Below are positions 37,981 through 46,514 of a stretch of DNA of 64,000 bases, in pieces (position 1 is the stretch's first letter; the number at the start of each line of letters is the position of its first letter). The position numbers were made by a program, and so were the translations under genes. The notes below the pieces were generated by a model. The model was not told the origin of the DNA, made no database searches, and saw nothing but the letters and a program-made list of their open reading frames with translations. The stretch is from Pedobacter soli. Lineage in GTDB: Bacteria > Bacteroidota > Bacteroidia > Sphingobacteriales > Sphingobacteriaceae. The stretch covers positions 62,001 through 126,000 of the forward strand of contig NZ_FMZH01000003.1 in assembly GCF_900101435.1 (NCBI RefSeq), in the 5' to 3' direction.

Positions 37981-38514
37981 CTATTCCGAAATTTTCTTTT
38001 CGTAAACTTCTAAACTGATTGGATTATCATTTTTAATCTCGCAATTCCATAAGGTCTTCTGATAAATAAAGTCTAGCTTTTTCAGTATTTTTTTACTGTT
38101 ATTGTTCTCTGTTTCAACCAGTGCAACAATTGTCGCCAGATTTAACACTTTCGATGCATAACCAAGCACTGCAGAGGCTGCTTCTTTTATTATGCCCTGG
38201 CCCCAATATTCTGGCAATAACCAGAAGCCAATTTCAGCCTCTTGTTCTATTTTCTTCAAATCATTAAATCCTATCGCGCCTAATAAATTAAGCGTTGCTT
38301 TATCGCAAATGGCCCACCATATACCTGTTTCATTTTCCTGGATCTCATTAAACCAAATCAGTTGTTCATTGGTTTCATCAAGGGTAGAATAGTTTACACC
38401 ATAATAGCGGATTACATCAGGGTTAGATAATCCTTTAAAAACAAAGGGCAAATCTTCAACACAAAACTGCCTCAGTAAAAACCTTTCAGTATATAACCTG
38501 GCTGAAGCAATCAT
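37981..38514 (-). CDS. GNAT-family N-acetyltransferase (RimJ/RimL type)
   Basis: A 177-residue GNAT protein. It opens with RLYTERFLLRQF, contains the acetyl-CoA region LLPEYWGQGIIKEAASAVLGYA and ends with LDFIYQKTLWN, all typical of the Acetyltransf_3 group that acetylates protein N-termini or small molecules. Its ATG overlaps the stop of tag by one base, so it is translated with the base-excision gene. Substrate unknown. Confidence 0.85.
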   Translation of the reverse strand: MIASARLYTERFLLRQFCVEDLPFVFKGLSNPDVIRYYGVNYSTLDETNEQLIWFNEIQENETGIWWAICDKATLNLLGAIGFNDLKKIEQEAEIGFWLLPEYWGQGIIKEAASAVLGYASKVLNLATIVALVETENNNSKKILKKLDFIYQKTLWNCEIKNDNPISLEVYEKKISE

Positions 38515-39101
38515 TACCTTGCGCAGCAGTTCAATAAATGATCGTTCACCATACCAGTGGCCTGCATGTGGGCATAACAGATGGTGGTGCCGAAAAATTT
38601 GAACCCCCGTTTCTTCATATCTTTACTAATGCGGTCTGATAGTTCTGTACGCGGAGGTACATCACTCATTTTTTCGATGTGATTTAAAATGGGTTTCCCA
38701 TCGGGCACGAAACTCCACATATACTTAGAGAAACTGCCAAATTCTTGCTGAATTTCGATAAACAGCCTGGCATTGGTAATGGCACCATTTACTTTTAAGC
38801 GGTTACGGATAATCCCCTCATCATTCATCAACCTTTCAACATCCTGTTCCGTAAAAGCAGCAACCTTTTGTACCTCAAAATTGGCAAAGGCCTTACGGTA
38901 ATTTTCACGCCTGCGAAGAATGGTAATCCAGCTCAAACCTGCCTGCGCACCTTCCAGTATCAAAAACTCGAACAGAATCTTGTCGTCATAAACCGGTTTA
39001 CCCCACTCTTCATCGTGATATTTGATGTATAGCGGATCTGATCCTGCCCAGGTACAGCGTATTGAGTTTGGAGTTTTCAGCTGGGAGTTTGGAGTTTCCA
39101 T
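38514..39101 (-). CDS. tag: DNA-3-methyladenine glycosylase I
   Basis: Tag removes 3-methyladenine from alkylated DNA. It has the zinc-ligand start RCTWAGSDPLYIKYHDEEWG and the late CYAHMQATGMVNDHLLNC. The helix segment GAQAGLSWITILRRRENYRKAF holds the catalytic region. The core is the usual length, but the first 13 residues (METPNSQLKTPNS) are encoded by an AACTCC-type simple repeat and no other good start is nearby. The gene overlaps the GNAT gene, and the S23 unit lies immediately upstream. Confidence 0.93.
   Translation of the reverse strand: METPNSQLKTPNSIRCTWAGSDPLYIKYHDEEWGKPVYDDKILFEFLILEGAQAGLSWITILRRRENYRKAFANFEVQKVAAFTEQDVERLMNDEGIIRNRLKVNGAITNARLFIEIQQEFGSFSKYMWSFVPDGKPILNHIEKMSDVPPRTELSDRISKDMKKRGFKFFGTTICYAHMQATGMVNDHLLNCCAR
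39064..39099. repeat. left AACTCC-type repeat, inside the 5' end of tag
   Basis: On the minus strand it reads as alternating AAACTCC and GAAAACTCC units. It encodes the unusual N-terminus of Tag. A similar tract in opposite orientation is at 39568-39594. Confidence 0.7.
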
Positions 39102-39107
39102 AAAATA

Positions 39108-39482
39108 CTAAACAGATTTAACAAAAAACTTTTCAGGATTATTCATCATATAAACAAGCAATTTAGCAACTTCTTCTACCTGGTTATTCAACATTTCAAA
39201 TTCATGATCTGAGATGTAACTACAAGCTAAAGCAAATTCCAGCCATGTCTGAGTTTCGCCGTTTTCGGTATCGGCATCAGAAAATTTACTTACAAAATGA
39301 TTAGGATATTTTCGCTTTCTATAGGCTTCAGCTATGTTTGCGCAAACACTTCTGGAACATCTTCGTATCTGATCGGTTAAACTATACTTTTCCTCAGGTG
39401 GGAATCTTTTAGAAATATGAAATATTTCCATAGCAAGTTTAAACCCTTTTTGATAAGCCAGTAGATCCTTTATTGTTCCCAT
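39108..39482 (-). CDS. four-helix-bundle protein, S23/IVS family
   Basis: The 124-residue helical protein starts IKDLLAYQKGFKLAMEIFHISKRFPPEEKYSLTDQIRRCSRSV, the standard pattern of S23 (23S rRNA intervening sequence) proteins. These were first found in rRNA insertions and now occur as lone genes in many Bacteroidota; relatives include the bAvd proteins of diversity-generating retroelements. Function unknown. It sits between tag and the AhpD-like gene, with inverted simple repeats on both sides, and probably entered as a unit. There is no reverse transcriptase nearby. Confidence 0.85.
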   Translation of the reverse strand: MGTIKDLLAYQKGFKLAMEIFHISKRFPPEEKYSLTDQIRRCSRSVCANIAEAYRKRKYPNHFVSKFSDADTENGETQTWLEFALACSYISDHEFEMLNNQVEEVAKLLVYMMNNPEKFFVKSV

Positions 39483-39567
39483 TTTAATAAATATAAGAAC
39501 ATTGCACGAAATAGCCTAGTGAATATGGTTACTCATAACTCGACACATTATACGGCAAATGCAAGGC

Positions 39568-39594
39568 GACTCCCAACTCTAAACTCCCAACTCC
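39568..39594. repeat. right AACTCC-type repeat, inside the 3' end of the AhpD-like gene
   Basis: It reads ACTCCCAACTCT and AACTCCCAACTCC on the plus strand. It encodes the last residues (SELGV) and stop of the AhpD-like gene on the minus strand. It is inverted relative to the tract at 39064-39099. Confidence 0.7.
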
Positions 39595-39932
39595 GAACCC
39601 AATTCATCCCAATACTCCACAGCTCTTCTATAATGCGGGATGACAATACTACCGCCCACTAAATTGGCGATCATAAAAATTTCGTTCATTTCATCGTTGT
39701 TCACGCCGGCATCGAAACATTTTCCGAGGTGGTATTTGATGCAATCATCGCAACGAAGTACCATTGAGGCTACCAGGCCTAACATCTCCTTGGTTTTTAC
39801 ATCAAGTGCACCATCAGCATAGGAAGTGGTATCGAGTGCAAAAAAACGCTTGATGTTGGTATTGGCGGTTTCCATGATCCTATCGTTCATTTTTTCGCGA
39901 TAGCTATTAAATTCTTCTACTAACTTTCCCAT
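39579..39932 (-). CDS. carboxymuconolactone decarboxylase / AhpD-like protein
   Basis: The 117-residue protein has the AhpD core CDDCIKYHLGKCFDAG, where the CxxC and histidine form a thiol redox site. The family covers alkyl-hydroperoxide reductase partners and decarboxylases, and small single-domain members with CxxC are usually peroxide-related. The C-terminus lies in the AACTCC-type repeat. It is on the same strand as tag and was probably adjacent to it before the S23 unit entered. Confidence 0.85.
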   Translation of the reverse strand: MGKLVEEFNSYREKMNDRIMETANTNIKRFFALDTTSYADGALDVKTKEMLGLVASMVLRCDDCIKYHLGKCFDAGVNNDEMNEIFMIANLVGGSIVIPHYRRAVEYWDELGSELGV

Positions 39933-45831: not shown

Positions 45832-45947
45832 ACATTAGAACGTTAAGATTTGTTCATGTTATTATCATCAAATGGTTTTCTCTGTATCAGTATTGCTTGA
45901 AAGTTTTAATAATCAATACAATAACAGTCATTTCAATAGCGCAAAAA

Positions 45948-46050
45948 ATGGTTAATGGTTAATGGTTTATAGTTGATAGTCAGATTGGTCTAGTTGATGT
46001 CATCAATTGGCCTTCTTACCATTAACTATCGGCTATTAACCATAAACTAT
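45948..46050. repeat. ATGGTTAAT-type repeats in inverted pair
   Basis: A left tract (45948-45983: ATGGTTAATGGTT, then TATAGTTGATAG) and a right tract (46018-46050) are inverted with respect to each other. The right tract read in reverse matches a piece at 48780-48813 (TTAATAGCC). The right tract touches the 3' end of tadA. Confidence 0.55.
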
Positions 46051-46514
46051 CTCTTTTTCGCAAAGAACCCTTTCATTAACGCAGCACATTCTTCTGCCAT
46101 TACGCCACCTTTCAATACCGTTTTAGGATGTAACAAATTTGCTCCTTTAGAAATAAAGCCTCTTTTCTCTTCCCTGGCACCGTAAACAATGCGACCAATC
46201 TGCGTCCAGTAACTCGCACCGGCGCACATTACACAAGGCTCAATGGTTACATAAAGTGTACAGTCTTTTAAATACTTACCGCCTATGGTTTGCGCCGCCG
46301 AAGTAAAAGCCTGCATCTCGGCATGGGCTGTAACATCGTTAAAACGCTCGGTTAAATTGTAGCCGCGACCAATAACCCGGTTTTTACTGACCACAATTGC
46401 TCCAATGGGGATTTCATCATCGGCCAAAGCTTTTTTAGCTTCTTCAATGGCTAGTTTCATATAATGAATATCTTCTGCTTCGGGATCGGTATCTTCGAAA
46501 TTATAAAAACTCAT
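46047..46514 (-). CDS. tadA: tRNA-specific adenosine deaminase / nucleoside deaminase
   Basis: A 155-residue cytidine-deaminase-fold enzyme with the zinc motif HAE (64-66) and PCVMC (93-97). It opens with an acidic extension and DIHYMKLAIEEAKKAL. It most likely makes inosine at the tRNA-Arg wobble position; guanine deaminase is the alternative in this family. The -7 box ends 4 nt upstream, so the leader is very short. Confidence 0.85.
   Translation of the reverse strand: MSFYNFEDTDPEAEDIHYMKLAIEEAKKALADDEIPIGAIVVSKNRVIGRGYNLTERFNDVTAHAEMQAFTSAAQTIGGKYLKDCTLYVTIEPCVMCAGASYWTQIGRIVYGAREEKRGFISKGANLLHPKTVLKGGVMAEECAALMKGFFAKKR

Follow-up and report, generated by a model that had tools for sequence, protein, structure and literature searches.

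An S23 four-helix-bundle gene between inverted heptad tracts at the ahpD-like/tag junction of Pedobacter soli, a probable copy of a compact single-gene element

According to passages of PMC4990558, RNase III excises the intervening sequence of Coxiella, in which S23p is preceded by tandem heptamers of variable number, and the Coxiella S23p copy is undergoing reductive evolution. The same passages report a homopentamer for an S23-family protein of Xanthomonas. Passages of PMC10053308 note PF05635, the profile of this family, as Avd-like. Heptamer repeats (TAACTGA) are described in passages of PMC4679880 for Beggiatoaceae, Cyanobacteria and Bacteroidetes, where they are intergenic and often located at start codons; neither "23S rRNA" nor "four helix" occurs in that paper. 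A general arrangement of S23 genes with inverted 7-mers was not found stated in the literature searched, which consisted mostly of papers outside subscription. The heptad repeats of Nostoc and Xanthomonas are reportedly dispersed 7-nt tandem units. REP/RAYT transposases are represented by few genes with inverted-repeat flanks and by many solo copies. We consider it likely that the feature described here represents a single-gene element of compact build, present here in one copy, in which an S23 gene lies between mirror-oriented 7-mer tracts at an operon junction and in the transcribed direction.

The window, the whole stretch of 64,000 nt that was analysed, is part of the 6.0 Mb genome of Pedobacter soli. 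It contains an S23 gene between an AhpD-like gene and tag, and all three genes are on the minus strand. The features are as follows, with arms named in the sense of S23:

38514 to 39101, minus strand: tag, DNA-3-methyladenine glycosylase I (PF03352, TIGR00624)
39064 to 39100, minus strand: downstream arm, ACT-N4 heptads (ACTCCAA ACTCCCA GCTGAAA ACTCCAA ACTC)
39108 to 39482, minus strand: gene of the S23 / 23S rRNA-intervening-sequence-protein family, 124 amino acids, four-helix bundle (PF05635, TIGR02436, structure model)
39568 to 39596, minus strand: upstream arm, AGT-N4 heptads (AGTTGGG AGTTTAG AGTTGGG AGTC)
39579 to 39932, minus strand: AhpD/carboxymuconolactone-decarboxylase-like (CMD) gene (PF02627)
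39064 to 39596, minus strand: proposed element of arm, S23 and inverted arm, about 0.53 kb, at the ahpD-like/tag junction

The upstream arm codes for the final codons and the stop of the AhpD-like gene, whose SELGV-stop end falls within this right tract, and the downstream arm codes for residues 2-13 of Tag, which begins METPNSQLKTPNS within the left tract. The left tract holds two copies of GAGTTTGGAGTTTYCA at a spacing of 21 nt. An inverted pair of 18 nt (39079-39096 and 39575-39592, 478 nt apart) was 89% complementary, and the observed inverted score of 17 was equalled in 1 of 4000 random placements with the same spacing within the window. AACTCCCAACTC with up to two mismatches was found 7 times in the window compared with 3.4 expected, a count that was reached in 9 of 100 shuffles and is not unusual alone, yet all 7 copies were within the two tracts. 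The 6.0 Mb genome had 9 exact copies of AACTCCVAACTCC, including two at the S23 locus, while the reversed control gave 0. The first-pass annotation had placed the S23 gene between inverted tracts at this junction, and its coordinates and coding assignments hold when the sequence is read again. The unit lies outside a 23S rRNA gene, and its inverted repeats are able to form a predicted stem around the insert.

A profile search against Pfam and NCBIfam identified S23, Tag as its left neighbour and CMD/AhpD as its right neighbour. S23 was the only ORF of at least 60 amino acids between the arms, where no transposase was found, and S23 itself matched no transposase family in the profile search. 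It matched PF05635 and TIGR02436 with E-values of 9.1e-33 and 8.3e-30 and with 113.1 and 103.2 bits (cut-offs of 33.8 and 24), respectively. The monomer model showed four helices with a pLDDT of 96, and its best folds in the PDB were 2gsc and 2rld with TM-scores of 0.87 and 0.81, respectively, followed by the Avd structure 4dwl. The model also matches Avd of the retroelement reverse-transcriptase complex, with Foldseek TM-scores (query) of 0.78-0.80 and E-values of 0.008-0.019 for 4dwl, 8ub7 and 8ube. Against the Avd profiles S23 stayed below the cut-offs, reaching 31.9 of 80 bits for NF033474 (DivGenRetAVD) and 38.9 of 40 bits for bAvd.

S23 relatives were found in at least 87 and Tag in 112 of 145 genomes of the genus, and the closest named relatives of the S23 protein among the matches listed were from Pedobacter. 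The AhpD-like/tag junction was read in 81 of the 112 Tag-matching genomes (80 and the window, with 31 lower-scoring ones left out). Sixteen junctions carried an S23 like that of the window with AACTCC-type tracts (class A), and another 16 (class B) had a different S23, flanked by tracts of a different sequence (GACTTAAGACTC type). Among the matches listed, this S23 was about 56-64% identical to that of the window where full length; class B includes three partial S23 matches (G131, G090 and G078). In 17 junctions there was a gap between the genes and no S23 (class C), in 19 AhpD and Tag abutted and the whole element including the arms was absent (class E), and 13 had no AhpD match. The Tag starts at the empty sites were unrelated to the arm-coded start, for example MDNIIRC in G074. 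The median dN/dS of S23 was 0.037 in class A (largest 0.23; 23 of 28 pairs, the remainder being saturated) and 0.035 in class B (28 pairs), which shows purifying selection on the S23 protein.

Among the 32 S23 carriers of the 81, a 7-mer tract was present upstream in 29 (14/16 of class A and 15/16 of class B) and downstream in 31 (15/16 and 16/16, respectively); the class A genome G026 had no AhpD match, so it was unscored and counts among the carriers missing tracts. The median inverted score at the junction was 20, 18.5 and 10 for classes A, B and C, respectively. Arms taken from different genomes matched within a class (A/A and B/B, median 18-19) but not when the classes were crossed (9-12). 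By a stricter spaced count, class C junctions had an upstream tract in 6/17 and a downstream tract in 6/17, and in 11 of these 17 S23-less gapped junctions, all 11 from close relatives, the AhpD end still had one GGAGTT or more. On the Tag tree, built from a short protein and with a bootstrap that had not settled, classes A, B and C were intermixed in a close clade, and 17 of the 19 abutting sites were outside that clade (G074 and G089 were the exceptions). Because the S23-less junctions are intermixed with carriers on this tree, the simpler reading of their tracts is that they are putative leftover ends; the tree pattern could alternatively reflect repeated loss or recombination between species.

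Close relatives without S23, G042, G031 and G077 among them, had a heptad-like AhpD end and, in place of S23, a hairpin repeat of CGTCATGCTGAA type. Palindromic repeats of the CGTCATGCTGAA...TTCAGGGTGACG type were seen where S23 was missing, at the tag junction (several of L124-L152) and between folP and dacA (L382, L383 and L387), as if one dispersed repeat were replacing another at two junctions lacking S23.

The first-pass annotation had interpreted the S23 gene as an insertion that carried its repeats with it and gave new coding ends to both neighbours. The junction comparison supports this interpretation, since 19 of 81 junctions abut without S23 or repeats. An origin of both tracts independent of S23 is weakened by the same abutting sites. 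The annotation had also named the opposite outcome, repeats at both sites in genomes without S23, and this was seen in part, as some S23-less junctions keep tracts.

Neighbours of S23 were called from plain ORFs of at least 90 amino acids, and both were called at 151 loci. Both neighbours were co-directional with S23 at 120 of these loci compared with 39 of 102 control genes, and the median gap at the 120 loci was 66 nt on the upstream side and 37 nt on the downstream side. The 151 loci comprised 82 distinct neighbour pairs; counted once per gene context, 56 of 82 were co-directional (p = 6e-5), a weaker bias than that per locus. The commonest contexts were the tag site (26 loci) and the site before folD (23 loci, three of which had FolD-like proteins by eye). 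The latter, a conserved site, is a sign of long residence and not of frequent movement. In passages of PMC5524665 a four helix bundle gene lies between the genes for guanylate kinase and nicotinate-nucleotide adenylyltransferase, which is a further operon-like site; those passages do not comment on repeats.

The genome of P. soli itself contains at least eight S23 genes, including thyA-S23-folA and folP-S23-dacA (gene names assigned by eye), and these two junctions were compared in 17 genomes, namely 16 relatives and its own. The thyA-folA junction was filled with S23 in 8/17. Both arms were kept without a scorable S23 in G067, the right arm was kept in G006 and G077, and short gaps were present in G031, G122 and G081. 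G087, G046 and G121 (L366, L368 and L378) had other ORF-sized inserts, and the insert ends of G046 and G121 resembled a small antitoxin-toxin pair by eye. The folP-dacA junction was filled with S23 in 4/17; G006 had both arms and a stretch resembling the first bases of S23, and the other 12 genomes had gaps of 106-275 nt and no S23. At three operon junctions, counting that of tag, the unit was present in some relatives and absent in others, and at two junctions internal deletions had left arms behind. Transposition was not observed in these junction comparisons. The arms were shown to be capable of providing the stop codon of the gene before the unit and the start codon of the gene after it.

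Heptad tracts overlapped the start codons of Tag, folA and a bioA-like gene. This overlap would suit a regulatory module, in which S23, as an autoregulator that binds RNA, would recognise the heptads and so tune the translation of neighbours. The fold that S23 has in common with Avd would suit it as well, Avd being one subunit of a reverse transcriptase that is a ribonucleoprotein. The neighbour genes vary widely across the 82 contexts, close relatives have the same operon without the unit and the arm letters change freely, all of which speak against binding sites of this kind, and we regard such a module as unlikely.

Arrays were also found far from S23. AACTCCVAACTCC occurred in at least 63 of 145 genomes of the genus, with the reversed control at no more than 4 per genome, and the own genome had 241 four-unit ACT arrays compared with 31 for the reversed control, both among the matches listed. 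In addition, 864 kb of the own genome was scanned in non-random stretches, including contigs C5 and C13, one stretch of C18 and eight stretches of C12, which were picked for known arrays or S23 genes. Arrays of at least five units in the 864 kb numbered 14 for ACT and 11 for AGT compared with 0 for TCA and 1 for TGA. At three units the excess was small (37 and 42 compared with 29 and 17), and at four units TTT and AAA outnumbered ACT. Adjacent arrays no more than 700 nt apart were arranged AGT-to-ACT in 12 cases, ACT-to-AGT in 0 and in the same sense in 12. Of the 12 AGT-to-ACT pairs, nine were tight hairpins with loops below 150 nt, too short for S23, two enclosed S23 and one enclosed another ORF with unmatched arms. 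This HAD-phosphatase-like ORF (by eye) was the one case in 864 kb of another gene bracketed by AGT-to-ACT arrays.

Heptad arrays formed the N-termini of biotin-carboxylase-like, bioA-like and esterase-like ORFs at L006 1474, L012 1478 and L010 1482, respectively (by eye), and N-termini of this kind may be misannotated or array-derived. The window contains a 42-nt hairpin at 45943-46055, 74% complementary, with ATGGTTA-type heptads and a 29-nt loop that leaves no room for a gene, which looks like a repeat of this type in a form lacking S23. Because S23-less arrays far outnumber S23 genes in the own genome, the arms may be able to exist independently of S23. The first-pass annotation had proposed measuring whether the AACTCC tract tracks with S23; strict tracking was not observed, as solo arrays without S23 exist. 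Since the own genome has dispersed arrays and hairpins without S23 and many arrays have no S23 nearby, a claim that the letters belong to S23 is not supported.

The tight hairpins could also be short forms of a non-autonomous DNA element with inverted ends, mobilised by a transposase in trans and carrying S23 as cargo. The inverted ends, the nine hairpins with no ACT-to-AGT pair in the 864 kb and the internal deletions with arms kept would all agree with this. On the other side, the ends differ in sequence and length within one genome, unlike the ends of one transposase, and the unit is biased towards the transcribed orientation inside operons. Such a bias is unusual for DNA transposition. No target duplication was evident by eye at the tag, thyA-folA and folP-dacA junctions, where the empty sites were too diverged, and we find a DNA element of this type improbable.

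The reading of the unit as a compact single-gene element of S23 and mirror-oriented arms was supported by the flanks of many loci. In 101 S23 loci, AGTN4AGT was found within 150 nt upstream in 92% compared with 1% for ACTN4ACT, and within 150 nt downstream ACTN4ACT was found in 91% compared with 4% for AGTN4AGT. A letter-free flank test compared 159 non-redundant S23 loci with 238 genes neighbouring S23 at these loci; loci with short flanks or duplicated by protein end had been removed, many loci were still related, and L027, L053 and L102 had no S23 ORF passing. An inverted score of at least 14 was reached by 122 of 159 S23 loci (median 18) and by 42 of 238 neighbour genes (median 10); 37 of 159 S23 loci were below 14. 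The median was 10 both for S23 flanks in direct orientation and for mismatched pairs, in which the upstream flank of one locus was combined with the downstream flank of another. The nominal p-values of the test were 4e-34 and 3e-45, with related loci included. Because many of the 159 loci are related, the test was repeated with one locus per gene context (n = 82), which gave a median of 18 with 80% at 14 or above, compared with 16% for controls taken once per locus (nominal p = 2e-19). Flank self-similarity peaked at a lag of 7 on both sides, at 0.37 and 0.36 compared with 0.29 in controls. A score of at least 14 was reached by 91% of genus loci, 72% of those from close relatives, 73% of plasmid-borne loci, 69% of best PF05635 matches and 83% of own-genome and low-scoring PF05635 loci, so that the effect was present in all five subsets, with controls at 0-22%. 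No PF05635 match was found among the matches listed in 14 control genomes. These results show that the two arms at a locus are matched, with letters that vary from locus to locus.

Plasmid S23 matches were mostly cyanobacterial (35 records). Twelve such S23 regions were read by eye, and nine had mirror-image short tandem tracts on both sides, with units that in cyanobacteria were often not exact 7-mers. The exceptions were L266 with no tracts, L269 with G-rich tracts in the same, non-mirror orientation, and L263, which was G-rich with an inverted score of 8. At L271, on a plasmid of Azospirillum lipoferum 4B, S23 lies inside an LSU rRNA gene with heptad arms on both sides that form a 36-nt inverted array, and this unit is a classical S23 intervening sequence. 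In a type III-B CRISPR operon on a Picosynechococcus plasmid, an S23 unit (L273 1989-2345) separates cas10 from a cmr3-family gene. Phages gave one distant S23 match only.

S23 and its arms go together across several phyla. The element letters are AGT-N4 upstream and ACT-N4 downstream in most of the Bacteroidota loci examined, and other letters are found elsewhere. AACTCC was rejected as the defining sequence, because the class B S23 genes of the tag junction are flanked by different letters, as are most distant S23 loci. The inverted tracts noticed at first stand, and what the loci have in common is a 7-nt step, with an ACT/AGT core in Bacteroidota, rather than AACTCC. The possibility that S23 genes elsewhere lack such flanks proved true for the AACTCC letters in most other genera and false for the arrangement. 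The observation made at the P. soli locus was confirmed and is wider than first thought.

That the heptads are ordinary dispersed 7-mer repeats piling up at operon junctions, with S23 merely resident there, would account for the many arrays away from S23 (AACTCCVAACTCC across the genus, the 241 four-unit ACT arrays against 31) and for those forming N-termini of unrelated genes (biotin carboxylase, bioA-like), but this idea was already weakened by the matched-arm test and is very unlikely, given that neighbour genes at the same loci lack the inverted match, AGT precedes ACT in a fixed orientation at 92% and 91% of loci, an arm matches its partner at the locus but not arms of another flavour, and cyanobacteria and a 23S rRNA insert show the pattern again.

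In predicted transcripts of 70 loci, the mean number of arm-to-arm pairs was 33, compared with 18 for a foreign arm and 12 for length-matched segments; the foreign arm still paired better than random segments, as shared low complexity would lead one to expect. From these models, the arms probably pair together in the operon transcript and would form a long stem enclosing the S23 frame in the operon mRNA. RNase III cuts the corresponding stem of S23 intervening sequences in 23S rRNA, and by analogy this stem might be cleaved, and if it is cut in the same way, the insertion would be tolerated and S23 freed as its own message. More tentatively, the S23 protein, as an Avd relative, might bind the stem or aid in spreading or keeping the element. 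The unit may have spread as an element, and the S23-less hairpins would then be its internally deleted derivatives.

The similar arrangement around most S23 genes examined suggests one widespread kind of single-gene insert, and the best reading of the 23S rRNA intervening sequence is that it is one case of a single-gene element bounded by inverted 7-mers. A bolder proposal is that S23 genes represent widespread intervening elements at the RNA level that invade operon mRNA and rRNA, with the interchangeable 7-mer arms as the excision stem, the Avd-like S23 assisting in their copying or spread, perhaps alongside a reverse transcriptase acting in trans, and the dispersed heptamers of Bacteroidota and Cyanobacteria as S23-less footprints; we hold this to be possible but doubtful. 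Intervening sequences and dispersed heptamer repeats, two loose puzzles, would become one testable element with defined parts. The odd N- and C-termini of Tag, the AhpD-like protein and DHFR are explained as array-encoded, so they should not be taken as conserved protein sequence.

Compared with known systems, the unit resembles the REP/RAYT transposases in that genes flanked by inverted repeats are few and solo copies are many, but S23 has no transposase match and its flanks are 7-mer arrays of changing letters and not one palindrome. It shares the four-helix-bundle fold with Avd of diversity-generating retroelements, although S23 is below the cut-offs of the Avd profiles. Like the dispersed heptamer repeats in the passages of PMC4679880, it has 7-nt tandem units that are intergenic and frequently at start codons; unlike the repeats as described there, the arrays here are paired and inverted around one gene. 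In arrangement it is like the S23-encoding 23S rRNA intervening sequence, with an S23 frame inside an inverted-repeat stem (predicted here), and like that of Coxiella, with heptamers upstream of S23p according to the passages of PMC4990558. In contrast to the 23S rRNA intervening sequence, the unit is located between protein genes of operons at many different sites, and in contrast to the Coxiella copy, for which those passages report reductive evolution, S23 here is under strong purifying selection.
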